A stretch of 64,000 nt of DNA, taken from assembly GCF_036373705.1 (NCBI RefSeq), contig NC_089863.1, forward strand, positions 9,993,857 through 10,057,856. Direction: 5' to 3'. The translations under genes were made by a program, and so were the position numbers. Source of the stretch: Amia ocellicauda (taxonomy: Eukaryota > Chordata > Actinopteri > Amiiformes > Amiidae). Positions within the stretch are counted from its first letter, which is position 1, and each line of letters starts with the position of its first letter. This document shows, in pieces, positions 3,402 to 30,100 of the stretch. A model generated the notes under the pieces. That model worked only from the letters and a program-made list of their open reading frames with translations, did not search any database and had not been told where the DNA came from.

Positions 3402-4197
3402 CAGTGAGGGAAAAAGTGTTTGATCCCCTGCTGATTTTGTACGTTTGCCCACTGACAAAGAAATGATCAGTCTATAATTTTAATGGTAGGTGTATTTTAA
3501 CAGGGAGAGACAGAATAACAACAAAAAAATCCAGAAAAACGCATTTCAAAAAAGTTATACAATGATTTGCATGTTAATGAGGGAAATAAGTATTTGATCC
3601 CCTATCAATCAGCAAGATTTCTGGCTCCCAGGTGTCTTTTATACAGGTAACGAGCTGAGATTAGGAGCACTCTCTTAAAGGGACTCTCCTAATCTCAGCT
3701 CGTTACCTGTTTAAAAGACACCTGTCCACAGAAGCAATCAATCAATCAGATTCCAAACTCTCCACCACGGCCAAGACCAAAGAGCTGTCCAAGGATGTCA
3801 GGGACAAGAGTGTAGACCTACACAAGGCTGGAATGGCCTACAAGACCATCGCCAAGCAGCTTGGTGAGAAGGTGACAAGTGTGGAGGAGTGGGACAAAAT
3901 CCCTCCTGAGATGTGTGCAAACCTGGTGGCCAACTCCAAGAAACGTCTGACCTCTGTGATTGCCAACAAGGGTTTTGCCACCAAGTACTAAGTCGAAGGG
4001 GTCAAATACTTATTTCCCTCATTAACATGCAAATCAATTTATAACTTTTTTGAAATGCGTTTTTCTGGATTTTTTTGTTGTTATTCTGTCTCTCACTGTT
4101 AAAATACACCTACCATTAAAATTATAGACTGATCATTTCTTTGTCAGTGGGCAAACGTACAAAATCAGCAGGGGATCAAATACTTTTTCCCTCACTG
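3402..4197. mobile_element. internally deleted Tc1/mariner element
   Basis: Begins CAGTGAGGGAAAAAGT and ends with the inverted equivalent CTTTTTCCCTCACTG, flanked by TA on both sides (3400-3401 and 4198-4199), the Tc1/mariner target duplication. Near-identical inverted arms of about 200 bp follow, then a second internal palindrome at about 3628-3727. Two fragments of the usual Tc1-like transposase region remain, one ending near 3880 and one from near 3882 to 3990, joined by a large deletion. No intact transposase can be made from it. Confidence 0.9.
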
Positions 4198-4332
4198 TAT
4201 TAATTCTCACTCTTCAGCAGTGGTGTAGTGGTAAGGTAATAAGCCGGTAAACTATGTCTGAACATATAACTTTTGTATATGCTGTATTATTATTATTTTA
4301 TTATGATTATTATTGCCATTTTCTAATCACAG

Positions 4333-7300
4333 GCGTTCAGAAAATACTACAGTGCCTCAAATAAAAACACGTTGCCGTCCAGGCAGCCAATCAGGGGACA
4401 GCACGGGTTCCGAGGCCACACCCTCCCGGCGCCGACCCCAGCCCTCATTGGATGAGAAAGGCAAGGGGGGCGGGGACTCCACTCCTTTAGCAGCCCAGGG
4501 CGCCTCCTCGTCTGCTGCTTCCTGCTTAGCAAGAAGGTCCAAAGTACAGGGAGAGAGGGAGGAGAGAAGCAGAGAGAGAGAGGGAGCGAGAGGGGCGGAG
4601 AGAAGCACAAAGGGGGAAGGAGTGAGGCAGAAGGAGGGAGCAAGGCAGACAGGCAGAGCCAAAGAGAGAGAGAGGACCACAGAGAGAGAAGGGGTGATTA
4701 CAAGAGGGGGAGAGAAAGCAAGAATGAGAGGGAGAGAGACAGAGGGATCAACAGAGAGAGGGAAAGAGAGAGAGACAGAAACGGGGAAGGAGATAAAGAC
4801 ACGAAGAGACAGAAAAGCTGAGGATAGAAGGGAGAAAGAAGTAACGTCAACCACAGAGAGAGATGAAATGATGGAGAGGGAGGAGGAAGAGGAGAGAACC
4901 GCAGAGAGAGAGGGAGTGAGAGAGAGGGAGGGATCAAGGAAGAGAGGCAGAGGCAAAGGGAGAGAGAGGACCACAGAGAGAGGAGTGAAAACAAAAGGGA
5001 GAGAAAAAGCAAGAATGAGAGAGAGAGCAAAAGAGAGAGGGGGAGAGACAGAGGGATCGACAGAGAGAGGGAAAGAGAGAGAGACAGAAAGAGGGAAGGA
5101 GATAGAGACACGAAGCGACAGAAAAACAGAGGATAGAAGGGAGACAGAAGTAAAGGCAACCACAGAGAGAGAGGGAACGAGAGAAAGAGAGAGCTTGACA
5201 AAGAGAGGTAAGGAGAGAGTGAGACAGAGAGACAGAAAAACAGAGGACAGAAGGGAGGCAGAAGTAATGTCAACCACAGAGAGAGATGGAACGATGGAGA
5301 GGGAGGAGGAAGAGGAGAGAACCACAGAGAGACAGGGAGTGAGGGAGAGTAAGAAGGAAAGAAGCACAGAGAGAAAGGGAGTGAGAGAGGAAGAGAGAAT
5401 GACAGAGGGAGAGGGAGCGAGGGAGAGGGAGGGATCAAGGAAGAGAGGCAGAGCCAAAGAGAGAGAGACGACCACAGAGAGAGGAGTGAAAACAAAAGGG
5501 AGAGAAAAAGCAAGAATGAGAGAGAGAGAGAAAGAGAGAGGGAGAGAGACAGAGGGATCGACAGAGAGAGGGAAAGAGAGAGAGACAGAAAGAGGGAAGG
5601 AAATAGAGACACAAAGCGACAGAAAAACAGAGGATAGAAGGGAGACAGAAGTAAAGGCAACCACAGAGAGAGAGGGAACGAGGGAGAGAGAGGAGGAGGA
5701 GGAGAGAAGCACAGAGAGAGAGGGAATGATTACAAGAGGGAGAGAGAACACAAGAAAGAGAGATAGAGAGAAAGAGAGAGGGGGAGAGACAGAGGGATCA
5801 ACAGAGAGAGGCCCGGTGTCCCCAGTAGAATCAGCACCAGAGTCCCAGTCACAGACAGCATTGCTTTCAGAACCAGTACCAGGGCGGTACTATATTTCAA
5901 AAGCAATACCAGAACCAGAGGCAGAGGTGTTGGTACCAGAACCTGCATTTATATCAGAACTGGAGTCAGCATCAGAACCAGTACCAGAACCACTATTAGT
6001 ATCAGTATCAGAACCAGCTTCAGTATCGGACTCCAACCTTCAATCTGTATCAGAACCAGGATCGGATAATATAGTGTCCCGAATGAGAACTCGTTGCCGT
6101 CCAGGCAGCCAATCAGGGGACAGCACGGGTTCCGAGGCCACACCCTCCCGGCGCCGACCCCAGCCCTCATTGGATGAGAAAGGCAAGGGGGGCGGGGACT
6201 CCACTCCCTTAGCAGCCCAGGGCGCCTCCTCGTCTGCTGCTTCCTGCTTAGCAAGAAGGTCCAAAGTACAGGGAGAGAGGGAGGAGAGAAGCAGAGAGAG
6301 AGAGGGAGCGAGAGGGGCGGAGAGAAGCACAAAGGGGGAAGGAGTGAGGCAGAAGGAGGGAGCAAGGCAGACAGGCAGAGCCAAAGAGAGAGAGAGGACC
6401 ACAGAGAGAGAAGGGGTGATTACAAGAGGGGGAGAGAAAGCAAGAATGAGAGGGAGAGAGACAGAGGGATCAACAGAGAGAGGGAAAGAGAGAGAGACAG
6501 AAACGGGGAAGGAGATAAAGACACGAAGAGACAGAAAAGCTGAGGATAGAAGGGAGAAAGAAGTAACGTCAACCACAGAGAGAGATGAAATGATGGAGAG
6601 GGAGGAGGAAGAGGAGAGAACCGCAGAGAGAGAGGGAGTGAGAGAGAGGGAGGGATCAAGGAAGAGAGGCAGAGGCAAAGGGAGAGAGAGGACCACAGAG
6701 AGAGGAGTGAAAACAAAAGGGAGAGAAAAAGCAAGAATGAGAGAGAGAGCAAAAGAGAGAGGGGGAGAGACAGAGGGATCGACAGAGAGAGGGAAAGAGA
6801 GAGAGACAGAAAGAGGGAAGGAGATAGAGACACGAAGCGACAGAAAAACAGAGGATAGAAGGGAGACAGAAGTAAAGGCAACCACAGAGAGAGAGGGAAC
6901 GAGAGAAAGAGAGAGCTTGACAAAGAGAGGTAAGGAGAGAGTGAGACGGAGAGACAGAAAGACAGGGAGACTGAGAGAGAAGGAGAAAGATGCAAGGAGA
7001 GCCACAGGAAGAGATGGAACAAGGGAGGGAGGGAAAGAGATAGAGAGAGAGAGAGACTATGCTACTACTCTCTCTACTGCTGCTACATCTACCACAGCTA
7101 CTCCTACCCCTACCACTACTCTTACCCCTACTATTCCTACCCCTACTTCTACCTGTACACCAAGCCCTACTCCTACCCCTACCACAACTACTCCTGCACC
7201 TACTCCAACCACAACTACTCCTACCCCTACTACTACTAGCACAACTTCTCCAACCCCTATTACCTCTACTCCTACTCCTACCCCTACCACAACTACTCCT

Positions 7301-10300
7301 ACCCCTACTACACCTAACACGACTATGCCTTCCACTACTACCCCTACGCCTACTACAACTACCCCTACTCCTACCCCTACTACCCCTACTCCTGCCCTAA
7401 CTATTACTGCTACCACAACTAAGCCTACCCCTACTACCCCAACCACAACTACTCCTACCTCTACTACCCCTACCACAACTACTCCTAACCCTACCATCCC
7501 TACTCCTACCCCTACCACAACATCACCTATCCCTACTACCCCTACCAAAACTACTCCTACCCTTACAAAACCTACCACAACTACTCCTATCTCTACTACC
7601 CCTACCACAACTACTCCTATCCCTACTAACCCTACTACTAGTGCTATGGCAAGTACCACTGCTATATCACCTACCACTACTACTTCTCTTCCCATCACAA
7701 CTACTACCCCTAACACTGCTGTTATTACCCCTGACCCTACAGTTACTCTTGCCCCTCCTGCCCGCCCTGCTCTGGAGTCTCAATCACAGTCCGGGTCAGA
7801 GACAGTATTCGGGTCAGAATGGTCGCTTGCTTCAGAGTCAGTATTGGGGTCGGACCTGTTCATGGGGTTGCAGTCAGAACTAGCATCAAGCATACCCACA
7901 GGTCCGGTACCAGGGATAGATTCAGCACTGTGGTCCATATCGGGGTCAGAACCAATGTCAGTATCAGGGTCAACACTGTGGTCCGAATTTGGGTCAGAGT
8001 TGGAATCAGTCTTGGCATTATTAATACCACCACTTCAGTCAGAACCCATGTTAGTGGCAGTCGGGTCAGTGACAGAACCGTCATCGGTGTCAGATGTGTA
8101 TGCCATGCAGGCATCAGAACCAGAAACTGGATTACAAACAGCACCACCTTTAGAATCAGAGTCAATGTCTAGATCTGCCCTGCTGTCACCAGTAGAATCA
8201 GCACCAGGGTACCAGTCACAGACAGTATTACTTTCAGAACCAGTACCAGAGGGGCACTATATGTCAAAAGCAATACCAGAACCAGAGGCAGAGGTGTTGA
8301 TACCAGAACCTGCATTTATATCAGAACAGGAGTCAGTTTCAATACCAGAATCACTATTAGTATTAGTATCAGAACTATCGGACTCCAACCTTCAATCTGT
8401 ATCAGAACCAGGATCGGATACTACAGTGCCTCAAATGAAAACACGTTGCCATCCAGGCAGCCAATCAGGGGACAGCACGGGTTCAGAGGCCTCACCCTCC
8501 CAGCGCCGACCCCAGCCCTCATTGGATGAGAAAGGCAAGGGGGGCGGGGACTCCACTCCCTTAGCAGCCCAGGGCGCCTCCTCCAGAGCAACACCAGCAC
8601 AGACAGTGCCAGGGCCAGACAGAGAGGGAGTGAGGGAGAGGGAGAAGAACAGAAGCACAGAGAGAGCAGGAGCTTGGGAGAAGGAGGGAGCAAGGGAGAG
8701 AGGCAGAGCAGAAGAGACAGAGAGGACCACTGACAGAGAAGCACTGACTACAAGAGGGAGAGCAAAAGCAAGAATAAGAGAGAAAGAGAGAGGGAGAGAG
8801 ACAGAGGGATCCACAGAGAGAGGGAAAGAGAGAGAGACAGAAAAAGGGAAGGAGAGAGTGAAACGGAGAGACAAAAGGACAGGGAGACCGAAAGACTACA
8901 AGAAAGATAAAGAGACAAGGAGAGCCACAGGAAGAGATGGAACAAGGGAGGGAGGGAGAGAGATGGAGAGAGAGAGAGAGGGGACCCCCCAGAGAAGAGG
9001 CAGAAAGCCACGCCCCAAACCCCGCCAAGCCCCGCCCACCCAACGCAGCCCAACAAACACAACACATACAACACACAGCCCAACGCACACAACACATACA
9101 ACACACAGCCCAACGCACACAACACATACAACACACAGCCCAACGCACACAACACATACAACACACAGCCCAACGCACACAACACATACAACACACAGCC
9201 CAACGCACACAACACATACAACACACAGCCCAACACACACAACACATACAACACACAGCCCAACGCACACAACACATACAACACACAGCCCAACACACAC
9301 AACACATACAAAACGCATCACACGCTCATCCACAAGAACCACTTCTCTTCCCATCACTACTACCCCTAACACTGCTGTTATTACCCCTGACCCTACTGTT
9401 ACTCTTGCCCCTCCTGCCCGCCCTGCTCTGGAAGCAGAGCTGGATTCTCAGTCAGAACCAGAGTCTCAATCACTGTCCGGGTCAGAACCAGCATTTGGAT
9501 CAGAACCAGTACCAGAGCAAGGATCAGAATCAGAGCCAGTATTTGGGTCAGAATGGCCGGTGTTAATGTTTGAGTCTGAGCTGTTCTCGGGGTTGGGGGT
9601 AGAACCAGAATCAGAGAACACAGAACCAGGCTCTGTATTTTCAGAACTACCACTTCTGTCAGAACCCGTCCTAGTGGCAGCTGGGTCAGTGACAGAACCA
9701 ACACCGGTGTCAGATGTGTGTGCTTTGATGGCATCAGAACCAGTAACTGGATCAGACACAGAACCACCATTGGAATCAGAGTCAGTGTCTAGATCTGACC
9801 AGGTGTTACCAGTGGAATCAGCACCAGGGTACCAGTCACAGACAGTTTTGCTTTCAGAACCAGTACCAGAGGCAGAGATGTTTGTACCAGAACCTACATT
9901 TATACTGGAACTGGAATCAGTATCAGAAATAGTACCAGAACCAATATTAGTATCAGTAGCAGAACCAGCTTCACTTTTGGACTCCAACCTTCTATTGGTA
10001 TCAGAACCAGTATCGGACCTGGTATCAGAGCCAACATCAAAACCAACATCAGAAGCAGCATCAGACCCAGTGTCAGTAATAGAATCAGTTTCCATAACAG
10101 GCTCAGACTGTCTGTCTGTATCGGAACCAGTGGTAGATTCAGTTTTGGATTTAGAGCTGTGGATTCTCTCACAACTGGAGCCAGTATCAGAACCACTACC
10201 AGTGACAGGGACAGAACTTCTCCCAGCTTCAGATTTCGTATCAGGCTCGGACCCTCTGCCTTTATCGGACTTAGTGGCATTAACAGTTTCAGATGTAGAG

Positions 10301-11560
10301 CTGTGGTTTCTCTCACAACTGGAGTCAGTATCTGAACCTCTACTAGTGTCCGGGACAGAACCTCTGCCCGCTCCAGTACCAACACTGGACCCAATATCTG
10401 AAGCACAACCAGCAATGCTGCCAGACCCAATATTAGGACCAGAGATAGCCCTGGGCCCAGCCACAGAAGAGGTACCAGAGTCAGTCCTGGGCCCAGTCTC
10501 CGAAGCAATACCAGTAGTAAAGCGAGTAACGGAAACACTATTACACACGTTATCACCAGTGTCACAGACAGAATCAATACCAGTAATGAATCCAGTAACC
10601 CAGATACAACTGGTACCACAATCGGACCCAATAACTCATCTTGAACCAGTATCAGTATCACCAGTCCCAGTCCCAGTACCCGTCTCGGTACCCCGCCAGG
10701 CGTCGGCGTTGATGCCGATGCCCCCCACGCCGCCGCCCTCCTGCCCTGCGCTGGGGCGCCTCTCGCAGCGGATGTACAAGAACTACAGGAGGTGGCAGGA
10801 CTACAGGCGCCTGACCCTGCCCTACTGCCCCTGCTCGCCCGACACAGAGGCCCTCGCCTGCTTCTTCATGTGAGTGGAGGCTCTTTAACTCCTTTAATGA
10901 ATGTATCTGTTCTCCCTCTTCCCCTCCCTCTTATCAGTGCGGTCCAGTCAGCCAGTGTGTTTATATTAATCTCTGCCTCTCTCTCCTCCTCCTCACTCTT
11001 CCTCTCCCTCTCTCACACCTCTGCCTCTCAGTCCGGTGCTGAGGTCCCTGTCACGCCTGTATTACCATCTGTCCCTGTCTCAAGGGATGTCTATGGCCGT
11101 GGCCGAGTGGAAGAGACTGAGCAACTGTGACCGCATTATCTACTATGACATGGCCAGGAAGTGAGTACATGCTGAGACACACTGAGATACACTGAGAGAC
11201 ACTTAGACGCACTGAGAGACACTGAGACGCACTTAGACACACTGAGAGACACTGAGAGACACTGAGACGCACTGAGAGACACTGAGAGACACTGAGACAC
11301 ACTGAGAGACACTGAGAGACACTGAGACGCACTGAGAGACACTGAGACGCACTTAGACACACTGAGAGACACTGAGAGACACTGAGACACACTGAGAGAC
11401 ACTGAGAGACACTGAGACACACTGAGAGACACTGAGAGACACTGAGACACACTGAGAGACACTGAGAGACACTGAGACGCACTGAGAGACACTGAGACGC
11501 ACTGAGACGCACTGAGACACACTGAGGGACACTGAGACGCACTGAGACACACAGATAGAC

Positions 11561-11608
<48 letters not shown>

Positions 11609-14600
11609 TTTGTCTGTGCCTGTAGGTTCATGGAGATTGAGCAAGAGGAACTAGAAAGCTTAAAGGTCACAGAGAGGTCAAAGGTCACTCAAGAGGTCAA
11701 TTCCAGAAAGACCCGCAACAATGGTTAGTCTGGGGTCAAAGTTCAGGTTAAAGCAATCAGTCCATGTGTCTATTATAACCCTCCCTAATCCCTTCTGTCA
11801 GTAGATAACACCCCGAAGAAGAAGCCCAGGGCCCGAGGGGGCAGTAAGAGCAGTGGCACGGGGGGAGGCAGGAGAAGCAGCAGCACACCCCTGGCCAGTG
11901 AGGGGGAGTGGAAACAGCTCGGCGGCCCCCCTCCAGATGCGTGGCAGGAATACACAAAACTCCTGGAGGCTCTGGGGTCACCAGGGTCAGAGGTCACGGG
12001 CCTTGAAGGGGGTCCATTTCTGGAGTACCTGGATCAGCTGTGCTCAGACAGACAGTTCGTCGACAAGGTGATGGTGTGGCTGGTGCACGTTGTTGTGTGC
12101 CTGTGGTGGGGCTGAGCAGTGTTCATTTCATCAACGAAAACTATGACGCAAAATATTCGTCAACGACCTACTTTCAGTGACGATAACTATGAGGATAACG
12201 AGATTAAATACTGTGAAAAAAATGATAAGTAAAAAGAAATGCCTTAGTTGACTAAAATGTGACGAAACGAAAAAATTCAACACAAGACTAATGGACATAA
12301 ATTACAGTATTTTGCGAGGTGGACAATCAGGGAGTTGTTTCATGGTCTAATCATAATAATGCATGCAATGACACAGTCAATGCGTTCATGTAGCACAGCT
12401 AATCGCTGTTCTGCGCAGATCTGCAGAATCCCACCAATCCCATTGGTGGAGCAATGTAGAACCGCGGAAATCTGCGCAACAGAATGTGACACGATTGGAC
12501 CCAAGCGTGTTTCGCTAAACATTGAATGCGCTTGATGTGGTTTAATGTATTGGTCTTAACGTGAAGTTGATACAGATTGTGTGAAGTTAAACACCTGTTC
12601 TTTTGTATACAGGACTGGTAAGTGCGGGTCTTGTAATTAGTAAATGTAGGATCTAACTGGTTAACTTATAAGTACAGGACGACAAGTTAAGCGCTACAGC
12701 ATGAAGTGCAATTCACACTTGGCTACTGTAGGGCTTAACAATATGCTTATGCTTTTAATATAATTTTAAACATGCAATCGTTTGTGTATTAGTAGGGGAA
12801 GTCTTTGAAAATGAAATGTTAATGCAAAAGCCATTTGAAATGTAATATTGTCAGCAAATCAGTGTACTGGAATATACAAATATAAATGGGATGATTGTAT
12901 TTGCATTTTGACCGAAATAATGCGTGCATGAATGGAAATGCAATTGTGGGATTACATTTGCATTGGAATGAAGTCCACTATATGCTTCCATACTGTTCTT
13001 GTAACTCTATTCTTATTACACACATTTTCAAGAGAAACGTCAAACTTAAAAAAATTGGAATAACAGTAATTTGTGATCATGAGGTTTACCATAGCTGTTT
13101 GTGACTTGATTCCAAATAAATTTCAAATTAAGCCAAGCAATAAGTTTGTTTTGTGTCCATCCAATAACTGATGTAAACATCTGGCATCAGACATAATGCA
13201 TAATGGTGATAATGAAGTCAAAATACATGAACTAAAATGTGACAAAAATTACACTGACTAAAACTAGACTAAAATGACATGAGTTTTCATCAACTAATAT
13301 TAACTAAAACAAATGAAATGGCTAAAATGGCTAAAACCGACAAGCATTTTAGTCAAAACAGTAAGACTAAATCCTGCCAAAATTAACACTGGTGCTGAGT
13401 TTGTGCTTTTTGCACCAATATGCTTAATTATGACTCCATTCCATTCCAGCAGAATGTTCAATAGCCAATCAACAGTAAGGATTGAAGAATTGAACAGTAA
13501 GGACTGCTGTCTCTGTCCCTCTCTCTCTCTCAGGTGGAGTCAGTGATCAACCCTGAGTACCTGTCCTCTCTCTTCTCCCCAGCTCCCCCTCCACTGGGAG
13601 AGACAGGCCAGCTGGACCAGGTACTGCTGTCTGTGTCTGTCTGCATCACCTCTCCCTCTCCCTCACCATATCCACACAACTAAATCTTCTACATCGCTCC
13701 TGTCAGTATAATTATTACAGTCAAATAATTGGAGATCTCTCTCTCCACTTCTACCTCTCCATGTGTTTTTATCACCTTATATTTCTCTATGTCTCTTTCT
13801 CTCCCTCTCTTTTCTCACAGGTAGCAGCACAGCACATAAGCTCTGGTACTGCACCTGCCTATCAGACAGTCACCAAGCGAGACTATAGCCCCCACAATGC
13901 ACTTCAGCGCGGCCCGCTTCCTAGCCCTGCTGCCCTGCTCGTGCCAGAGGGCTACAGCGCCCAGGGTGCTCCTCGCCGTGCCCATGTTTACAGCAGCCGA
14001 AGAGAACTCTTTCTCCCACGGGAGAACTACGGCCCCCAGAATGAAACTGCAGTCCTACACAGTGGGCCGCCCATCATGCGGGACAACTACAGTACCCAGA
14101 ATGCTCTGCAAAATCCACAGGGTTCCCCCTACCGGAGCCCCGTGGCCATGCAAGAGAACTACAGCATCCGGCGGCCCTACTCCAGCATTCCTCAAGAGTT
14201 TCCTGTTCTGAACTACGGCCCCCACAATGCCCCTCTCTCCCTGCAGCCTCAGCGTCTCAGTGGCCATGAAGCTCCCCACCTCTTGCACAACAACTACACT
14301 TCTCACAATGCACTGCCACCTGCCTCTCAGAATTACAGCCCTCAACGTGCCCATGCCAGATTTCCTCACGCTCAGCCTCTGTCTCCTGTGCTTCTGCCCG
14401 ACTGTAGTTCCCATGATCCTCAGCGCCTGCTCTTATCTCCGGAGAACTACAGTACCTACAATCCCTCTCTGTCCCAGCAGCATCCACTCTTACCTGAGAA
14501 CTACAATTTCCAGGGTGCCACCTACCCAGCACACCTGTTAAACTACAGCCCCCACAATGCACCTCTCAGCATACTACAACACCCTGGCAGCGATGCAAAC

Positions 14601-14867
14601 GTCATCCTTATGCAGAACTACAGTTCCCAGAGCGCATTTCCCACGGGCCTAGAGAACTACAACGGCCACTATGCAGCTGCCAACCTGCAGTACTACACAT
14701 CCCACAATGCACTGCGGAGCCCCCATGGTTACTACAACTCCCAGGATTCACTTGCAATCCAGTCAATTCACTTCGGATCCCAGCCAGCCACAGGAAACCC
14801 CCCTGGAGCGAGGCTGAGAAGGGGGAGAGAGAGTGGAGGAGAGAGAGAGGGAGAGGGAGAGGAGTAG
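4333..14867 (+). CDS. nutm1: NUT family member 1 orthologue (5' end missing)
   Basis: In mammals NUTM1 is a testis-enriched nuclear protein that recruits p300/CBP and drives histone hyperacetylation; here the role is inferred. Exons: 4333-10869, 11032-11160, 11626-11723, 11802-12067, 13534-13620, 13821-14867. The junctions keep frame and together give the conserved NUT core: MYKNYRRWQDYRRL, SPDTEALACFFIPVLRSL, MAVAEWKRLSN..IIYYDMA, KFMEIEQEELE, then FVDKVESVINPEYLSSLFSPA. These match human NUTM1 in order. The first exon here is a 6.5-kb open frame: Arg/Glu-rich blocks, a Thr/Pro tract (about 7065-7740), Ser-Glu-Pro repeats, an HTTHSPTHTT repeat and the NUT core at the end. It has no ATG at its start; it follows an acceptor (TTTCTAATCACAG, ending 4332), so at least one upstream exon is unseen. 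The last exon (348 codons plus stop) carries about 16 NYSxxNA repeats and does not resemble the mammalian C-terminus. Confidence 0.82.
4371..6945 (+). repeat. large in-frame direct duplication inside the NUTM1 exon
   Basis: Roughly 855 bp starting at 4371 recurs from 6093 to about 6945 with almost no differences, 1722 bp apart (574 codons, so frame is kept). A third, diverged copy of the beginning lies at about 8445-8990. The repeated protein is an RCxPGSQSGDSTGSEA segment followed by long Arg/Glu-rich stretches. Near identity implies a recent duplication or conversion, or an assembly artefact. Confidence 0.85.
9049..9308 (+). repeat. 30-bp coding minisatellite (HTTHSPTHTT repeat)
   Basis: About 8-9 near-perfect copies of a 30-bp unit (CCCAACGCACACAACACATA plus ACAACACACAG, phase aside) within the NUTM1 exon. 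Each encodes ten residues, so any change in copy number keeps frame. Confidence 0.9.
11165..11606. repeat. 10-bp minisatellite plus (AAT)n in NUTM1 intron
   Basis: ACTGAGAGAC / ACTGAGACGC units run from just after the donor at 11161 to about 11553, followed by an AAT microsatellite (about 11562-11606). This fills nearly the whole intron before the acceptor at 11624-11625. Confidence 0.9.
12117..13391. mobile_element. non-autonomous hAT-like element in NUTM1 intron, 1.28 kb
   Basis: Left end CAGTGTTCATTTCATCAACG and right end complement CAGTGTTAATTT are inverted copies. Flanks are GGGCTGAG (12109-12116) and GTGCTGAG (13392-13399), an 8-bp target duplication with one mismatch. Subterminal ACTAAAATGTGAC-type repeats recur in both halves. 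No long frame resembling a transposase remains. Confidence 0.82.
13882..14749 (+). repeat. array of about 16 ZNF143/THAP11-like motifs, in coding sequence
   Basis: The 19-20 base pattern ACTACAGYNCCCASAATGC recurs at about 13882, 13952, 14026, 14086, 14158 (partial), 14212, 14293, 14332, 14401, 14446, 14500, 14542, 14617, 14656, 14692 and 14731. In frame it reads N-Y-S/G-x-H/Q-N-A. The pattern matches the published SBS motif of ZNF143/THAP11 (ACTACAATTCCCAGAATGC). Copies such as 14692 (ACTACACATCCCACAATGC) and 14731 (ACTACAACTCCCAG) are close to consensus. Whether any is bound is unknown. Confidence 0.75.
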
Positions 14868-14906
14868 AAAGCAAGGGAAGATGATGCCCAGCCCCCAAAC
14901 GTGGCT

Positions 14907-14940
<34 letters not shown>

Positions 14941-15599
14941 AGAGAGGTGGAGGAACCACTGATGAAAAAAAAGAGGGAGGGAAGAAAAATGTAAAGAGGG
15001 ATAGAGCAGTGTTTATTCATAGTAATAAAGTCTCTGAGTGAGTACCTTTTCATTTTTGTTTTTCAGTTTATTGATCATGTGGCGATCACAGTGGTAACAC
15101 AGTCGCCCTGGAATATGTCAGCACACACACTGACTGACAGATACACACAAACTGATACACTGATACATTGACTGACTAACTGACTGACACACTGATATAC
15201 TGACACACTGACTGACTGACACACAAACTGATACACTGACACACTGACTGACTGACTGAATGACTGACTGACTGATATACTGTCTGGCACACTGACATGT
15301 TGACTGACTAACAGTAGCAGTAATTGCAGGAGTAGCAGTAGAGTAAAAGCCTGTCCCACAGACTGTCTCACTGTCCTGTCCAACGCAGACAGGCCCCCCC
15401 ATGCTAGCTCAGCCCTGCACTCTTAATAAAGACGCACAGGCCCAAACCATGTGGCCATGGAGATGCTCTATTATTATAATAATAAGTATGAATTGCACAG
15501 GTTTAATTCATAACTACACAACAATAACACAACAGTTTCAACTGTTCCACCTTGCCCCCCCCTCTTTGCCAAATTAGGACAGCTTCTGTTGAGGAGCCC
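14868..15599. other. convergent 3' UTR space between NUTM1 and LPCAT4
   Basis: Holds plus-strand AATAAA at 15024-15029 and 15425-15430 (NUTM1) and minus-strand AATAAA (TTTATT on plus) at 15012-15017 and 15067-15072 (LPCAT4). A CTGACTGACACACTGATA minisatellite lies at about 15127-15310. No coding sequence seen. Confidence 0.7.
15024..15029 (+). terminator. candidate NUTM1 polyadenylation signal
   Basis: AATAAA 157 bases after the NUTM1 stop codon. A second AATAAA at 15425 could be used for a longer 3' UTR. Confidence 0.5.
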
Positions 15600-19383: not shown

Positions 19384-21355
19384 GACTTGTGTGTAGCTGC
19401 TCACCTGGCCATCAGCTGCTGCACGTTGTCTGCGAAGAGGTTGGGGTTTTCCTTCTCCTCCTGTGAGGGTGTGTAGACGGGCAGGAACTACAGCCAATGA
19501 AAAGGTATGAAGGTTACGGGAGCAGTGAGGGGGCGGGGCTTGGGATGTGATGTCAAGGATGTGCAGTAATGAAAACAGAGAGAGAGAGAGAGACTCACCT
19601 CCACTGTGACATTAGTGTAGAGCTGAGAGGTGGTGTACCATAGTGCCTGGATCCTAAAAACAAAATGGAAAAAAAAACATTGAGAGAGACACAAGATAAC
19701 AATATTATTAATAATAATAATAATTGTACTGACCAGGATATGCCCTTCCATGTCCACCTCACTGTGTCCTGTAGACAGAACACACAGTCATATCAACATC
19801 AATTAAAAACAGTCCATTAATCAATTAACCACACTGCTTGATCAGTTATGTGACTCACCAGTGTGTTGGGGTAATGCAGCAGGACCGGCTGGACTGGGAC
19901 TCCGGCAACAAACGCCCCTGCAACACGACAACACAACACAGTCACACAACAGCACGACGCAGTCACGGAGCACCACAGCCGCACCACGCAACTCGGCTAA
20001 AATGGCGCTGCTGCACCACAACACAACACGGTCACGTGAACCACGACACACGAAAAACCAGAGCCCACAACACCACACACAGTCACGACAACGCAGCACC
20101 ACAGCTCACAACACAACCGCACAACCACACTGCTCTCTCTGGGTCACTCACCTGTCTTGAACTTAATCAATCCTTTACCATTGGTGGTGGTGCCTTCAGG
20201 AAAGATCAACACCTGAGAGAGAGAGAGAGGAATGAGAAAACCTGACAGAGAGACAGTAGGACAGACAGAGACAGAGAGACACAGAAAGTGACAGACGCTC
20301 ACCTGTGGCCAGGTGCCCTGCTGTCTGAGTCTGTGGGTCAGCTGCTCCAGACACTGTCTGCGTGAGGACGGGTCACTACGACACACCAGGAGGGACTGAT
20401 TGAACCGCAACAATGCTGTGTGAGAGAGAGAGAGTTAATATAGACACTGACTGACTGACACACTGACTGACTGACACACTGACACACTGTCCCTCACCTC
20501 CTATCACCGGCAGACTCAGGTTCTCTGAGCGGGACACCACGGTGGGGAGGTCACAGGTCACCACCATTAGCGTGTCCAGGAAGCTGCTGTGAGGGGCGAC
20601 GGCAAGCAAGGGGGCGTCCTGGGGTCGGGCCCTCTGACCTTTGACACGGATCCACAGGAAACCCAGAGAGAAGAAGGCACAGCGACTCAGGAAACGGATG
20701 ATGGGGTGGAGCAACCAGCTGAGAGAGAGAGAGAGAGAGAGAGGGTTAATACAGACACACTGACTGACTGAACACTACAGCACATTAACACTGCACTGAG
20801 AGAGAGAGGGTTAATACAGACACACTGACTGACTGAACACTACAGCACATTAACACTGCACTGAGAGAGAGAGGGTTAATACAGACACACTGACTGAACA
20901 CTACAGCACATTAACACTGCACTGAGAGAGAGAGGGTTAATACAGACACACTGACTGAACACTACAGCACATTAACACTGCACTGAGAGAGAGGGTTAAT
21001 ACAGACACACTGACTGAACACTACAGCACATTAACACTGCACTGAGAGAGAGAGGGTTAATACAGACACACTGACTGACTGAACACTACAGCACATTAAC
21101 ACTGCACTGAGAGAGAGAGGGTTAATACAGACACACTGACTGAACACTACAGCACATTAACACTGCACTGAGAGAGAGAGGGTTAATACAGACACACTGA
21201 CTGAACACTACAGCACATTAACACTGCACTGAGAGAGAGAGGGTTAATACAGACACACTGACTGACTGAACACTACAGCACATTAACACTGCACTGAGAG
21301 AGAGAGGGTTAATACAGACACACTGACTGAACACTACAGCACATTAACACTGCAC

Positions 21356-22764: not shown

Positions 22765-24175
22765 CCCTCTCTCCGGGGCGCTCTGGGGGTCCCGGGCCGC
22801 ACAGTTGATGGTTTCCCTGGCGACGTGTCTTCGGAACCAGCCCGAAGGAGAAACGAGTCTGTCCGATGTCTGTCCGATGTCTGTCCGATCTGTCTGCGGG
22901 GACTCCCCTCTCGGCTTAAGGTGATTCAAGTTTTCAATCGTGCGCTCAACCCGTACACGTTACAATCACTATGGCTGCCGAAAACACACACAACTGTCTC
23001 TACACTACACACGCCAGCCCCCCAGGCTCTCTATATTAAAGGCAACTGTACTGCCACACACATTATGATTTACAAACTGACTCTACAGGAAAGAGAATTC
23101 AAGCGCCACATTAATACATCTTTCGAATTACATTTAAAAAAGAAAAGGAAAAAAGAGAGCAATCGTGCTGAAAATGACAGGGTATTCCGCTGGTGTACAA
23201 GTGTCTTTCTTGTTAGTTCCTCCCAGTTGGTTGAATATATAATAGGATCTATAACTGAGTTCTTGGGATGAGTCCAGAGGTCCAGCTGCGGATTGACTGG
23301 ACGGTTTCAGGACGACACGCAACTCACTCTGACCAGGTAGATTTAAACTTTTTGAGTGTGTCCCTCCCTGTTTCTCTCTCTCTCTCTCTCTCTGAGTCAG
23401 ACACACCCCCCACTATCACAACACAGCACACCCGTTCAACCTGCTCTGTTAACAGGGCACTGAGAGTGTGTGTGTGTAGTGCAGTACTGTACCACAGAGA
23501 AAAGGACAATAACAAGCACTACAATACATTGCAGTCTAGAACACTGTAGCAGCGCAGTACAGTACAGTAGTCTAGAACACTGCTTTAGAACAGCTAGGAG
23601 TGCAGAATAGAACAGAACAGTCTAGAACACTGCACTTGAGTACAGTGTAGGTGTAGTATAGTACAGTATGGGAGTGTGGTATTGTAGAGTACAATGTAGA
23701 ACAGTGTAGTACAGAGCGGCTGTGTTTGTGTGCAGGATTGTGTGTACAATCACAGCAGGAGGTGCACTGTGAGTCAGTGTGTCTTGGCCCTCAGCAGGCT
23801 GTGCATATCTGCCATAGCCCAGCGCATACCTGCAGCACTGCACCTGTCATTCCCTGAAACCACACATGTTCACACCGGACCCCTCCTTCTATTCACTCCA
23901 GAAACACAAAACAAACAAACCTCTGCTGGCATGACTGTTGCCTCTCAACATAAGCATGTCGCTCTCCTCCGCCCCTCACCTCTCTCTGCAGGAGTCCCGT
24001 CCCCACCCCGATCACACAAAACACCACCCATTCACACCCGCCGCCGCCCTGGTTTCTCTCCCCCTTTCTAACACGCCCGGCCGGGTGCCGCTGATCCGGT
24101 GGAGCCGCATTCCGGTCCTGAGACAACGTCTGAGAGACAGAGACACTTGCTCAACAGGACAGGCCTGTTCCCCTC
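22765..24175. other. region upstream of LPCAT4
   Basis: Includes the LPCAT4 5' UTR and presumably its promoter just above 22765, where a GTCTGTCCGAT triplet repeat lies at 22858-22891. Further up there is mixed sequence with TACAGT-rich stretches (23530-23720) and a GC-richer patch at 23990-24115. No gene recognised. Confidence 0.45.
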
Positions 24176-27100
24176 TCTCTCTGTGCAGTGTTAATGTGCT
24201 GTAGTGTTCAGTGTGTCTGTATTAACCCTCTCTCTCTCAGTGCAGTGTTAATGTGCTGTAGTGTTCAGTCAGTGTCTGTATTAACCCTCTCTCTCTGAGT
24301 GCAGTGTTAATGTGCTGTAGTGTTCAGTCAGTGTGTCTGTATTAACCCTCTCTCTCTCAGTGCAGTGTTAATGTGCTGTAGTGTTCAGTGTGTCTGTATT
24401 AACCCTCTCTCTCTCAGTGCAGTGTTAATGTGCTGTAGTGTTCAGTCAGTCAGTGTGTCTGTATTAACCCTCTCTCTCTCAGTGCAGTGTTAATGTGCTG
24501 TAGTGTTCAGTCAGTGTCTGTATTAACCCTCTCTCTCAGTGCAGTGTTAATGTGCTGTAGTGTTCAGTGTGTCTGTATTAACCCTCTCTCTCTCAGTGCA
24601 GTGTTAATGTGCTGTAGTGTTCAGTCAGTGTCTGTATTAACCCTCTCTCTCAGTGCAGTGTTAATGTGCTGTAGTGTTCAGTGTGTCTGTATTAACCCTC
24701 TCTCTCTCAGTGCAGTGTTAATGTGCTGTAGTGTTCAGTCAGTGTGTCTGTATTAACCCTCTCTCTCTCAGTGCAGTGTTAATGTGCTGTAGTGTTCAGT
24801 CAGTGTGTCTGTATAAACCCTCTCTCTCTCAGTGCAGTGTTAATGTGCTGTAGTGTTCAGTCAGTGTGTCTGTATTAACCCTCTCTCTCTCAGTGCAGTG
24901 TTAATGTGCTGTAGTGTTCAGTCAGTGTGTCTGTATTAACCCTCTCTCTCTCAGTGCAGTGTTAATGTGCTGTAGTGTTCAGTCAGTGTGTCTGTATTAA
25001 CCCTCTCTCTCTCAGTGCAGTGTTAATGTGCTGTAGTGTTCAGTCAGTGTGTCTGTATTAACCCTCTCTCTCTCAGTGCAGTGTTAATGTGCTGTAGTGT
25101 TCAGTCAGTGTGTCTGTATTAACCCTCTCTCTCTCAGTGCAGTGTTAATGTGCTGTAGTGTTCAGTCAGTGTGTCTGTATTAACCCTCTCTCTCTCAGTG
25201 CAGTGTTAATGTGCTGTAGTGTTCAGTCAGTGTGTCTGTATTAACCCTCTCTCTCTCAGTGCAGTGTTAATGTGCTGTAGTGTTCAGTCAGTCAGTGTGT
25301 CTGTATTAACCCTCTCTCTCAGTGCAGTGTTAATGTGCTGTAGTGTTCAGTCAGTCAGTGTGTCTGTATTAACCCTCTCTCTCTGTGCAGTGTTAATGTG
25401 CTGTAGTGTCCAGTCAGTGTGTCTGTATTAACCCTCTCTCTCAGTGCAGTGTTAATGTGCTGTAGTGTTCAGTCAGTGCGTCTGTATTAACCCTCTCTCT
25501 CTCAGTGCAGTGTTAATGTGCTGTAGTGTTCAGTCAGTGTGTCTGTATTAACCCTCTCTCTCTCAGTGCAGTGTTAATGTGCTGTAGTGTTCAGTCAGTG
25601 TGTCTGTATTAACCCTCTCTCTCTCAGTGCAGTGTTAATGTGCTGTAGTGTTCAGTCAGTGTGTCTGTATTAACCCTCTCTCTCTCAGTGCAGTGTTAAT
25701 GTGCTGTAGTGTTCTGTCAGTCAGTGTGTCTGTATTAACCCTCTCTCTCAGTGCAGTGTTAATGTGCTGTAGTGTTCAGTCAGTCAGTGTGTCTGTATTA
25801 ACCCTCTCTCTCTGTGCAGTGTTAATGTGCTGTAGTGTCCAGTCAGTGTGTCTGTATTAACCCTCTCTCTCAGTGCAGTGTTAATGTGCTGTAGTGTTCA
25901 GTCAGTGCGTCTGTATTAACCCTCTCTCTCTCAGTGCAGTGTTAATGTGCTGTAGTGTTCAGTCAGTGTGTCTGTATTAACCCTCTCTCTCTCAGTGCAG
26001 TGTTAATGTGCTGTAGTGTTCAGTCAGTGTGTCTGTATTAACCCTCTCTCTCTCAGTGCAGTGTTAATGTGCTGTAGTGTTCAGTCAGTGTGTCTGTATT
26101 AACCCTCTCTCTCTCAGTGCAGTGTTAATGTGCTGTAGTGTTCAGTCAGTGTGTCTGTATTAACCCTCTCTCTCTCAGTGCAGTGTTAATGTGCTGTAGT
26201 GTTCAGTCAGTGTGTCTGTATTAACCCTCTCTCTCTCAGTGCAGTGTTAATGTGCTGTAGTGTTCAGTCAGTCAGTGTGTCTGTATTAACCCTCTCTCTC
26301 AGTGCAGTGTTAATGTGCTGTAGTGTTCAGTCAGTGTGTCTGTATTAACCCTCTCTCTCTCAGTGCAGTGTTAATGTGCTGTAGTGTTCAGTCAGTGTGT
26401 CTGTATTAACCCTCTCTCTCTCAGTGCAGTGTTAATGTGCTGTAGTGTTCAGTCAGTGTGTCTGTATTAACCCTCTCTCTCTCAGTGCAGTGTTAATGTG
26501 CTGTAGTGTTCAGTCAGTGTGTCTGTATTAACCCTCTCTCTCTCAGTGCAGTGTTAATGTGCTGTAGTGTTCAGTCAGTGTGTCTGTATTAACCCTCTCT
26601 CTCTCAGTGCAGTGTTAATGTGCTGTAGTGTCCAGTCAGTGTGTCTGTATTAACCCTCTCTCTCTCAGTGCAGTGTTAATGTGCTGTAGTGTTCAGTCAG
26701 TCAGTGTGTCTGTATTAACCCTCTCTCTCAGTGCAGTGTTAATGTGCTGTAGTGTTCAGTCAGTCAGTGTGTCTGTATTAACCCTCTCTCTCTGTGCAGT
26801 GTTAATGTGCTGTAGTGTCCAGTCAGTGTGTCTGTATTAACCCTCTCTCTCAGTGCAGTGTTAATGTGCTGTAGTGTTCAGTCAGTGTGTCTGTATTAAC
26901 CCTCTCTCTCTCAGTGCAGTGTTAATGTGCTGTAGTGTTCAGTCAGTGTGTCTGTATTAACCCTCTCTCTCTCAGTGCAGTGTTAATGTGCTGTAGTGTT
27001 CAGTCAGTGTGTCTGTATTAACCCTCTCTCTCTCTGTGCAGTGTTAATGTGCTGTAGTGTCCAGTCAGTGTGTCTGTATTAACCATCTCTCTCAGTGCAG

Positions 27101-30100
27101 TGTTAATGTGCTGTAGTGTTCAGTCAGTGTGTCTGTATTAACCCTCTCTCTCTCAGTGCAGTGTTAATGTGCTGTAGTGTTCAGTCAGTCAGTGTGTCTG
27201 TATTAACCCTCTCTCTCTCAGTGCAGTGTTAATGTACTGTAGTGTTCAGTCAGTGTGTCTGTATTAACCCTCTCTCTCTCAGTGCAGTGTTAATGTGCTG
27301 TAGTGTTCAGTCAGTGTGTCTGTATTAACCCTCTCTCTCTCAGTGCAGTGTTAATGTGCTGTAGTGTCCAGTCAGTGTGTCTGTATTAACCCTCTCTCTC
27401 AGTGCAGTGTTAATGTGCTGTAGTGTTCAGTCAGTGCGTCTGTATTAACCCTCTCTCTCAGTGCAGTGTTAATGTGCTGTAGTGTTCAGTCAGTCAGTGT
27501 GTCTGTATTAACCCTCTCTCTCTCAGTGCAGTGTTAATGTAGTGTAGTGTTCAGTCAGTGTGTCTGTATTAACCCTCTCTCTCTCAGTGCAGTGTTAATG
27601 TGCTGTAGTGTTCAGTCAGTGTGTCTGTATTAACCCTCTCTCTCTCAGTGCAGTGTTAATGTGCTGTAGTGTTCAGTGTGTCTGTATTAACCCTCTCTCT
27701 CTCAGTGCAGTGTTAATGTGCTGTAGTGTTCAGTCAGTCAGTGTGTCTGTATTAACCCTCTCTCTCTCAGTGCAGTGTTAATGTGCTGTAGTGTCCAGTC
27801 AGTGTGTCTGTATTAACCCTCTCTCTCTCAGTGCAGTGTTAATGTGCTGTAGTGTTCAGTCAGTGTGTCTGTATTAACCCTCTCTCTCTCAGTGCAGTGT
27901 TAATGTGCTGTAGTGTTCAGTCAGTGTCTGTATTAACCCTCTCTCTCTCAGTGCAGTGTTAATGTGCTGTAGTGTTCAGTCAGTCAGTGTGTCTGTATTA
28001 ACCCTCTCTCTCTCTCAGTGCAGTGTTAATGTGCTGTAGTGTTCAGTCAGTGTGTCTGTATTAACCCTCTCTCTCTCAGTGCAGTGTTAATGTGCTGTAG
28101 TGTTCAGTCAGTCAGTGTGTCTGTATTAACCCTCTCTCTCTCAGTGCAGTGTTAATGTAGTGTAGTGTTCAGTCAGTGTGTCTGTATTAACCCTCTCTCT
28201 CTCAGTGCAGTGTTAATGTGCTGTAGTGTTCAGTGTGTCTGTATTAACCCTCTCTCTCAGTGCAGTGTTAATGTGCTGTAGTGTTCAGTCAGTCAGTGTG
28301 TCTGTATTAACCCTCTCTCTCTCAGTGCAGTGTTAATGTAGTGTAGTGTTCAGTCAGTGTGTCTGTATTAACCCTCTCTCTCTCAGTGCAGTGTTAATGT
28401 GCTGTAGTGTTCAGTCAGTGTGTCTGTATTAACCCTCTCTCTCTCAGTGCAGTGTTAATGTGCTGTAGTGTCCAGTCAGTGTGTCTGTATTAACCCTCTC
28501 TCTCTCAGTGCAGTGTTAATGTGCTGTAGTGTTCAGTCAGTGTGTCTGTATTAACCCCCTCTCTCTCAGTGCAGTGTTAATGTGCTGTAGTGTCCAGTCA
28601 GTGTGTCTGTATTAACCCTCTCTCTCTCAGTGCAGTGTTAATGTGCTGTAGTGTTCAGTCAGTGTGTCTGTATTAACCCTCTCTCTCTCAGTGCAGTGTT
28701 AATGTGCTGTAGTGTCCAGTCAGTCAGTGTGTCTGTATTAACCCTCTCTCTCTCAGTGCAGTGTTAATGTGCTGTAGTGTTCAGTCAGTCAGTGTCTGTA
28801 TTAACCCTCTCTCTCTCAGTGCAGTGTTAATGTGCTGTAGTGTTCAGTCAGTCAGTGTGTCTGTATTAACCCTCTCTCTCTCAGTGCAGTGTTAATGTGC
28901 TGTAGTGTTCAGTGTGTCTGTATTAACCCTCTCTCTCTCAGTGCAGTGTTAATGTGCTGTAGTGTTCAGTCAGTCAGTGTGTCTGTATTAACCCTCTCTC
29001 TCTCAGTGCAGTGTTAATGTACTGTAGTGTTCAGTCAGTGTGTCTGTATTAACCCTCTCTCTCTCAGTGCAGTGTTAATGTGCTGTAGTGTTCAGTGTGT
29101 CTGTATTAACCCTCTCTCTCTCAGTGCAGTGTTAATGTGCTGTAGTGTCCAGTCAGTGTGTCTGTATTAACCCTCTCTCTCAGTGCAGTGTTAATGTGCT
29201 GTAGTGTTCAGTGTGTCTGTATTAACCCTCTCTCTCTCAGTGCAGTGTTAATGTGCTGTAGTGTTCAGTCAGTCAGTGTGTCTGTATTAACCCTCTCTCT
29301 CAGTGCAGTGTTAATGTGCTGTAGTGTTCAGTCAGTGTGTCTGTATTAACCCTCTCTCTCTCAGTGCAGTGTTAATGTGCTGTAGTGTCCAGTCAGTGTG
29401 TCTGTATTAACCCTCTCTCTCTCAGTGCAGTGTTAATGTGCTGTAGTGTTCAGTCAGTGTGTCTGTATTAACCCTCTCTCTCAGTGCAGTGTTAATGTGC
29501 TGTAGTGTTCAGTCAGTGTGTCTGTATTAACCCTCTCTCTCTCAGTGCAGTGTTAATGTGCTGTAGTGTTCAGTCAGTGTGTCTGTATTAACCCTCTCTC
29601 TCTCAGTGCAGTGTTAATGTGCTGTAGTGTTCAGTCAGTCAGTGTGTCTGTATTAACCCTCTCTCTCTCAGTGCAGTGTTAATGTGCTGTAGTGTTCAGT
29701 GTGTCTGTATTAACCCTCTCTCTCTCAGTGCAGTGTTAATGTGCTGTAGTGTTCAGTGTGTCTGTATTAACCCTCTCTCTCTCAGTGCAGTGTTAATGTG
29801 CTGTAGTGTTCAGTCAGTCAGTGTGTCTGTATTAACCCTCTCTCTCTCTCAGTGCAGTGTTAATGTGCTGTAGTGTTCAGTCAGTGTGTCTGTATTAACC
29901 CTCTCTCTCTCAGTGCAGTGTTAATGTGCTGTAGTGTTCAGTGTGTCTGTATTAACCCTCTCTCTCTCAGTGCAGTGTTAATGTGCTGTAGTGTTCAGTC
30001 AGTGTGTCTGTATTAACCCTCTCTCTCTCAGTGCAGTGTTAATGTGCTGTAGTGTTCAGTCAGTGTGTCTGTATTAACCCTCTCTCTCTCAGTGCAGTGT

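Follow-up and report, generated by a model that had tools for sequence, protein, structure and literature searches.

Analysis of a 64 kb stretch of Amia ocellicauda DNA (hereafter the window) revealed that the probable last exon of a NUTM1-like gene on C20 carries sixteen in-frame copies of a 19-base word resembling the composite M4/SBS site of vertebrate promoters, and that variation among these copies follows the published degenerate positions of the site, not the third positions of codons. The unit of repetition is most likely the DNA word and not the peptide, as the same word, arrayed a second time on C18, reads there as different peptides. On these grounds we tentatively favour, with a probability of roughly 0.4, an amplified M4/SBS word that was kept by selection, is predicted to be bound and would tune its own gene, with a passively translated tandem repeat as a close rival.

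Results

The first-pass annotation had placed the array in a single open frame of a NUT gene, and this was borne out by a Pfam NUT domain (PF12881, E 4.2e-10) in the host gene as well as by a genome-wide search, in which the only two NUT matches above the cut-off both fell inside the NUTM1-like gene, each reading through one TGA. At its 3' end, a 2188-codon open frame (4307-10873) takes in the domain part at 10622-10870. Splice signals, a stop codon and AATAAA point to 13821-14867 as the coding part of the last exon, which is predicted to join the preceding exon in phase 0 and likely encodes the C-terminal tail of a fish-like NUTM1; a Pfam search of the last exon itself gave no match. The relevant features of the window are as follows.

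10622..10870, + strand: part of the NUT domain (Pfam NUT, 4.2e-10), also recovered by the whole-genome NUT search
11027..11176, + strand: second NUT match, the best of the genome (G000:C20:10004883-10005032, E 9.7e-10), spanning one TGA
11802..12067, + strand: NUT coding exon ending LEYLDQLCSDRQFVDK, boundaries predicted; weak Pfam NUT match (E 0.022, under the cut-off)
13534..13620, + strand: coding exon before the last (VESVINPEYLSSLFSPAPPPLGETGQLDQ), boundaries predicted, without Pfam match
13821..15029, + strand: probable last exon in the NUTM1-like gene, its acceptor ...CACAG followed by GTAGCAGCA, stop 14865-14867, AATAAA 15024-15029
13882..14749, + strand: array of 16 in-frame M4/SBS-like 19-mers, from word search, translated as NYSxxNA
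13882, 13951, 14026, 14086, 14158, 14212, 14293, 14332, + strand: starts of copies 1-8
14401, 14446, 14500, 14542, 14617, 14656, 14692, 14731, + strand: starts of copies 9-16
14086..14104, + strand: best copy; M4 and the 12-base SBS core both matched with 0 mismatches, the 18-base SBS with 1
14573..14591, + strand: out-of-frame partial match from word search, 3 mismatches, probably chance
14692..14710, + strand: strong copy; M4 matched exactly, core and full SBS each with 1 mismatch

An acyltransferase match lies downstream (20147-20434, minus strand, E 2.5e-5) and may represent LPCAT4, the neighbour expected beside NUTM1 by synteny.

Searching both strands of the window for ACTACANYNCCCANNATGC at up to three mismatches returned 21 matches, 16 of them within 13882-14749 and all of these on the + strand, whereas 100 dinucleotide shuffles of the window yielded 4.24 on average and never more than 8. 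One reading frame is common to 15 of the 16, the exception being 14573, while the in-frame copy at 14158 (NYSIRRP) exceeds the three-mismatch cut-off and its inclusion gives sixteen in-frame copies, all spaced by whole codons; the copy at 14692-14710 forms a direct pair with 14731-14749. The earlier count of about 16 recurrences therefore stands for copies with mismatches, whereas the stricter consensus ACTACAGYNCCCASAATGC is matched exactly only twice in the exon, at 14086 and 14542. Similarly, the reported retention of CC in the fourth codon behind a varying first base describes 11 of the 16 copies (4 CCC, 4 TCC, 2 ACC, 1 GCC) but not the other five, which read ATC, TCT, CCT, TTC and GGC.

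According to the excerpted parts of the respective publications, M4 is bound by THAP11/HCF-1 and overlaps the SBS, with consensuses ACTAYRNNNCCCR and YWCCCRNMATSC (PMC5006282), SBS2 starts with AAACTACAATTCCCATTATGC (PMC7154149), and the RBM is given as CTGGGARWTGTAGTY in reverse orientation (PMC10329844). The repeat word resembles such a composite site, in which ACTACA (THAP11/HCF-1) overlaps a CCCAnnATGC-type core (ZNF143). Exact M4 (ACTAYRNNNCCCR) was found in 8/16 copies on C20 and 4/17 on C18, and the SBS core (YWCCCRNMATSC) within one mismatch in 8/16 and 10/17, respectively; the other 8/16 C20 copies miss the core by more than one base. The close match to the SBS that had been proposed thus holds as a likeness to the published M4/SBS consensuses but does not extend to the full 18-base SBS with its 3' YYRCR end, from which the copies differ by a mean of 4.06 (C20) and 4.53 (C18) of 17 specified positions. 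At column 23, where the SBS calls for R, 10/16 C20 copies carry T, and the SBS 3' end is mostly missing, so that many copies would be weak candidate sites.

Synonymous recoding removed much of the word from the C20 exon. Observed counts of 5, 10 and 14 sites at up to one, two and three mismatches, together with 8 exact M4, compare with largest values of 3, 6, 9 and 5 in codon-permuted recodings (n=300), and two further synonymous controls (300 each) never rose above these maxima; the observed site counts were thus reached in none of the three controls. Among the 16 copies, published degenerate positions change in 7.60 copies on average versus 1.86 at fixed ones, a contrast equalled by 2/11628 position subsets, although this test is biased because the copies had been selected by motif similarity. 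Defining copies by nothing more than a Tyr with S/T/N/G next to it (18 places), which removes the selection bias only partly, still gave 10.33 versus 4.25 for the downstream bases (2/165 subsets). Conservation of the fixed positions is equal across the first, second and third bases of codons (1.75, 2.00 and 1.75 changes), and synonymous changes in the C20 copies are not in excess (13 observed vs 9.3 expected, p 0.21). Residues 4 and 6 differ widely between copies, yet the third bases of their codons are C in 14/16 and T in 14/16 copies.

The C18 array comprises 9 copies within three mismatches and about 17 alignable ones, with a repeat unit close to 42 bp; detectable likeness links 12 of its spacers (0/200 shuffles reach the observed mean). 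It adjoins exons encoding a BTB domain (Pfam 8.3e-10, two exons joined) of a gene that we tentatively take, from its overall layout, to be BTBD18, and we infer that the open frame of the array is translated as part of this gene. Within one 1339-codon open frame the word occupies two different frames, giving TTxPxM in block 1 and LQLPEC in block 2, as opposed to NYSxxNA in NUTM1. The first 1,900 bases hold 6 sites at up to one mismatch, compared with a maximum of 1 in 200 recodings. The contrast between fixed and free positions was absent from the 10-copy block (6152/11628 subsets reach the observed value) and weak over all 17 copies (332/11628). The NYS frame of block 2 stays open over 288 codons, which 4/300 recodings of the long frame attained, so that an overlapping gene there is possible, and its peptide resembles that of C20, flanks included (BLASTP 2e-6, single comparison); in block 1 it is closed around the four copies listed, with open stretches of 12-69 codons. 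A search of the C20 exon peptide against its own genome returned only the exon itself and a weak C7 match (E 0.245), and C18 was not recovered. Taken with the recoding controls, the C18 copies in two other frames favour the earlier suggestion that the DNA pattern preceded the peptide.

Spacers within the C20 array are slightly alike (5/200 shuffles reach the observed mean), those of C20 and C18 are more alike than shuffled ones (0/100), and blastn aligned 86 bp across the two arrays at 66% (E 1.8e-4 for one comparison); because of these similarities, the arrays may not be independent. At up to three mismatches every copy lies in sense orientation (16/16 on C20, 9/9 on C18), the outcome expected of simple tandem duplication.

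Pairs of a complete word and a later M4 word on the same strand, with 10-40 or 41-71 bp between them, were found on C18, C20 and C21 in 988 Mb, a count of three places that is valid only for near-complete copies with gaps of 10-71 bp and from a search in which very common words were skipped. The pair patterns missed the L071 array, whose forward copies lie 123-146 bp apart and which was found from one site, and further M4-bearing repeats and M4-like clusters occur elsewhere in the genome. Uniqueness was judged on the complete word including ATGC, since pairs of the 5' half, CTACANN(N/T)CCCA, are dominated by repeats of Thr/Pro type (ACTACAxCTCCCACC...) on C18 and C20 and by minisatellites on C1 and C9; the 5' half alone was accordingly rejected as evidence. 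A triple pattern of the 3' half matched 8 times, as against 2 in the reversed control; all of these matches were to other repeats, and both coding arrays were missed.

Exact sites occur at 25 places genome-wide, 2 of them in the window, and 23 loci were read around the site. On the basis of shared flanks, 12/23 were classed as copies of a single interspersed repeat that carries ACTACAGCCCCCACAATGCC (ACTACAGTCCCC in one copy), L002 being assigned only weakly, and 7/12 show a facing M4 word 67-72 bp on. Comparison of the repeat's flanks with the arrays revealed no clear match downstream (observed value reached by 7/100 shuffles for C20 and 4/100 for C18) and none upstream (39/100 and 65/100), and an Rfam search of 3 of the 12 loci (L001, L006, L011) gave 0 matches.

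Neither array lies in a CpG-rich promoter position near a start site: the CpG observed/expected ratio amounts to 0.41 for the C20 exon, which ends in a stop codon and AATAAA, and to 0.16 for the C18 array exon, compared with 0.45 in the window. As values of 0.65-1.15 were obtained at 6/11 non-repeat loci with an exact site, neither array appears to resemble a constitutively unmethylated promoter.

Discussion

In the reading that we favour, an M4/SBS site would have been amplified in tandem by whole-codon steps inside an open exon, and selection would have retained the site-like bases in the C20 array. The array would be bound by THAP11/HCF-1 and/or ZNF143, mostly with low to medium affinity and at some germline stage, and could tune the transcription of its own gene, e.g. 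as an internal start or a start-site sensor, with the NUTM1 protein tail as a tolerated by-product; any enhancer or insulator role of the exon is putative. According to the excerpted part of PMC3936768, a low-affinity SBS lying downstream of a start site can switch which start is used, and in the ZNF143 gene a weak SBS within the transcribed region senses the factor level. Instead of an array in a last exon, as on C20, ZNF143 has a pair of sites, SBS/B and SBS/C, close to the first exon.

Alternatively, a single M4/SBS site, possibly supplied by an interspersed repeat, may have seeded a loosely constrained tail and been copied passively; the copies would then have diverged, and the word would be a memory of descent that no longer serves binding. 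The same gene does contain another in-frame tandem expansion (30-bp unit, 8.9 copies, 9046-9311, open coding frame), and the roughly 42-bp unit on C18 and the other M4-bearing repeats of the genome point the same way, while the low CpG content and the likeness of spacers within and across the arrays keep this explanation fully alive. Neutral drift, however, should spread changes evenly, whereas those on C20 concentrate at the published degenerate positions, and arrays of this word occur in two genes from different families; we regard passive copying as a distinct possibility from which we nevertheless lean away.

The single frame and whole-codon spacings of all C20 copies would also be expected if the protein tail used NYSxxNA as a functional repeat, such as a short binding motif, with the likeness at the DNA level secondary, and the long NYS frame of C18 block 2 with its C20-like peptide fits this as well. 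We consider it unlikely, given the loss of the word on synonymous recoding, the lack of an excess of synonymous changes, the variation of residues 4 and 6 beside steady third bases, the closed NYS frame of block 1 and the failure of the C20 peptide to retrieve C18. Recognition of the sense-strand word in mRNA is very improbable: it would suit the uniform orientation and the position of the C20 copies within the predicted mature mRNA, but the degeneracy fits a known DNA site, tandem duplication alone gives same-strand copies, and we know of no RNA-binding partner for the M4/SBS word.

NUTM1 and BTBD18 are genes with germline roles. It is conceivable, if doubtful, that the amplified word represents a class of translated cis-regulatory arrays, exemplified by NUTM1 and the BTBD18-like gene, in which M4/SBS sites multiply tandemly in open exons of germline chromatin genes, the DNA being under selection as germline-stage control of the host gene and one word yielding all three peptides.

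The vertebrate promoter M4/Ronin-binding motif with SBS (THAP11-HCF-1, ZNF143/STAF) is the same word as in both arrays; unlike in promoters, many copies lie here in a coding exon outside CpG-rich DNA, and most are sub-consensus and without the 3' RCR end. Coding minisatellites of fast-evolving genes are a known kind of in-frame tandem expansion, as seen on C18, but here the retained core resembles a regulatory site and spans two gene families and three frames. Coding exons with enhancer function (eExons) are described in the excerpted PMC4745165; as in eExons and duons, coding-exon DNA is predicted here to carry transcription factor sites, although in this case an expanded single-site array forms the exon's repeat domain. 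Clusters of CTCF sites, which per the excerpt of PMC10832218 become germline start sites via BORIS, offer an analogy only: they gather one factor's sites and act as germ-cell start sites, but are intronic or intergenic and belong to a different factor. Among the open-licence PMC titles and abstract openings listed, none dealt with ZNF143/THAP11 coding-exon arrays or fish NUTM1 repeats, which is weak evidence of absence.

If the favoured reading is true, part of a protein was written by a transcription factor site that had expanded at the level of DNA. That the word changes frame from one array to the other makes it easier, even when orthologues are lacking, to tell apart whether selection acts on DNA or on peptide. 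Such a case would provide a concrete test for dual-use codons and would caution that repeat domains of fast-evolving proteins may be the read-through of DNA sites.

The NUT-family gene and its last exon

The window corresponds to C20:9993857-10057856 in the 988 Mb assembly (385 contigs) and carries a NUT-family gene on its plus strand (Pfam NUT, 4.2e-10 at 10622-10870). A NUT search of the whole genome gave two matches, both within this gene and each with one TGA read through. The following features were assigned downstream of the domain, with exon junctions inferred from splice signals:

11802-12067, plus strand, exon of the NUT-family gene
13534-13620, plus strand, exon of the NUT-family gene
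from 13821, plus strand, last exon, with its stop codon at 14865-14867
15024-15029, plus strand, AATAAA after the stop codon

A Pfam search of the last exon returned no match. Upstream, a 2188-codon open frame (4307-10873) ends in the NUT domain and is a strongly expanding coding sequence: the repeat pattern of 4726-5110 is seen again at 6448-6832, accompanied by CTACCC/CTACTC-type repeats and a 30-bp unit in 8.9 copies (9046-9311). The window further contains minus-strand acyltransferase matches at 20147-20774 (2.5e-5 at 20147-20434; 0.039 at 20379-20774), probably from an LPCAT gene that converges on NUTM1, a Sleeping Beauty type transposase helix-turn-helix at 3665-3988 (Pfam 7.6e-15), and three long minisatellites (61 bp x 131 at 24173-32169, 34 bp x 71 at 49360-51821 and 33 bp x 61 at 54978-57010).

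Searching the 64 kb with ACTACANYNCCCANNATGC, a composite of M4 (THAP11/HCF-1) and overlapping SBS (ZNF143) site-like words, revealed 21 matches with up to three mismatches, of which 16 lie within 13882-14749, all on the plus strand; shuffled controls (n = 100) reached at most 8 across the whole window. Fifteen of these 16 share a reading frame, and the copies in frame total 16 once a diverged one at 14158 is counted; they are spaced 36 to 81 bp from start to start and always by whole codons. The array proposed in the first-pass annotation is therefore real, while its consensus is matched exactly in only two copies.

DNA word or peptide

The annotation had also proposed that the DNA pattern rather than the encoded NYSxxNA peptide was the original repeat, to be checked against synonymous codons. 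In synonymous recodings of the 348-codon exon (three codon models, 300 recodings each), none of the models reached the observed counts, with 5, 10 and 14 sites at up to one, two and three mismatches versus control maxima of 3, 6 and 9, and 8 exact M4 sites versus at most 5. Among the 16 copies, a mean of 7.60 were changed at positions that are free in M4/SBS versus 1.86 at fixed positions, a contrast equalled by 2 of 11628 five-position subsets, and the fixed positions were equally conserved at codon bases 1, 2 and 3. As these copies had been chosen partly by similarity to the word, the test was repeated on all 18 in-frame places where Tyr precedes S, T, N or G, using downstream bases only, which gave 10.33 versus 4.25 (equalled by 2 of 165 subsets). 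Conservation of the peptide should leave an excess of synonymous changes, and no clear excess of such changes from the consensus was found in the C20 copies (13 observed, 9.3 expected, p 0.21), the few changes making this a weak test.

A second array on contig C18

An exact-site search of the same genome returned 25 places and none in the reversed control; one of them, C18:20041044, falls in a second array:

G000:C18:20039950-20041098 (L024/L025, L013), M4/SBS-like words in two frames, within a 1339-codon open frame near BTB exons

A BTB domain is encoded by exons approximately 4-8 kb upstream (8.3e-10, exons joined), and we infer that these belong to the same gene as the array exon, presumably BTBD18. 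Nine copies have up to three mismatches and about 17 are alignable (7 in an upstream and 10 in a downstream block), with an SBS core within one mismatch in 10 of the 17. In the long frame the words translate as TTxPxM upstream and LQLPEC downstream; stop codons interrupt the NYS frame around the four listed upstream copies, where open stretches run to 12-69 codons, and over the downstream block it stays open for 288 codons. Within the first 1,900 bases of the long frame, 6 sites with up to one mismatch compare with a maximum of 1 in 200 synonymous recodings. The free/fixed contrast was weak across all 17 copies (332 of 11628 subsets) and absent from the 10-copy block alone (6152 of 11628).

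Spacers were alike beyond shuffling among 12 C18 spacers (0/200, leaving out one 3-base spacer and the three longest gaps), slightly alike within C20 (5/200) and alike between the two arrays (0/100). Blastn aligned 86 bp of the arrays at 66% (E 1.8e-4), and the NYS-frame peptides also align (2e-6); when the C20 peptide was searched against the genome, C18 was not among the reported matches. Given these likenesses in spacers, alignment and peptides, a larger unit of common descent, or a shared peptide, may lie behind both arrays.

M4-like words elsewhere in the genome

Genome-wide, the strict single word ACTACANYTCCCANNATGC has 119 occurrences, with none in the reversed control, while looser patterns were swamped by minisatellites and Thr/Pro-type repeats. 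Repeats with ACT ACA xxT CCC A words at C18:17.35-17.62 Mb and C20:6.11 Mb mimic the M4 5' half and would encode Thr/Pro in that frame; motif scans can be misled by them. A complete word followed by a second M4 word on the same strand (gaps of 10-40 and 41-71 bp) had three occurrences, on C18, on C20 and, as a single pair, on C21; facing pairs (10-40 bp) occur at 7 places.

The gap-limited patterns missed a more widely spaced array, L071 (G000:C1:62956900-62957900; C1:62.957 Mb), in which M4-like words occur five times forward and five times facing, the forward ones 123-146 bp apart. It starts at the putative splice donor (CAG|GTAAACTACAGCTCCCATGATGC) that ends an exon whose UIM-like motif scores below the cut-off (E 0.0062); later units likewise open with donor-like sequence. 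Arrays of M4-like words thus also occur outside the two coding frames. A megabase-scale cluster of M4/SBS sites occupies the final 3.3 Mb of this contig (C1:61.09-64.29 Mb); it accounts for 19 of the 100 exact sites listed first, out of 119 genome-wide, and for 3 of the 7 facing pairs.

An interspersed repeat with ACTACAGCCCCCACAATGCC (ACTACAGTCCCC in L017) was read at L001, L002 (only weakly like the others), L005, L006, L008, L010, L011, L012, L015, L017, L018 and L019; a facing M4 word follows 67-72 bp on in 7 of the 12 copies. The repeat may act as a mobile vehicle for THAP11/ZNF143-like sites. At L069 (G000:C7:685576-685647, minus strand), about 100 bp directly upstream of a small open frame, MAQGKQKFKAQRPGGKK, contain three TATCCCACAATGCA cores together with a fourth, partial one (TATCCCACAGTT), an arrangement resembling a promoter that has clustered SBS half sites.

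A possible regulatory role

The closest rival explanation is a passive tandem repeat without regulatory role. The word fits M4 and the 12-base SBS core fairly well, half of the C20 copies (8/16) having an exact M4 and 8/16 a core within one base, but the 3' part of the full SBS is mostly absent, with on average 4.06 mismatches out of 17. The CpG observed/expected ratio stands at 0.41 for the C20 exon and 0.16 for the exon carrying the C18 array; among the 11 exact-site loci outside the interspersed repeat, six lie at 0.65-1.15 and five, including the C18 array itself, at 0.00-0.46. In 300-bp steps, the C20 array reaches 0.41-0.53 (0.20 at its end) and its neighbours lower values of 0.07-0.16, and the C18 array (0.05-0.34) does not rise above its neighbours. 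Neither array looks like a constitutive promoter, leaving room for binding that is stage-specific or weak, or for none at all.

Published work describes recruitment of THAP11/HCF-1 by ACTAYR (PMC5006282), shifted start-site use by a weak SBS downstream of the start site (PMC3936768), looping together of THAP11-bound promoters (PMC10329844) and germline start sites from clustered CTCF sites (PMC10832218). A word cluster of this kind could act in one of these ways, and the view that it serves as an enhancer, an insulator or a start site is put forward as a proposal. The full reading, comprising DNA word, binding and regulation, appears tentative, at slightly under even odds, and the DNA-level reading of the arrays we place at about three in four. 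As the same word occurs in two genes of different families and in three readings, the sequence comparison makes it well supported for this genome that the DNA word preceded the peptide.
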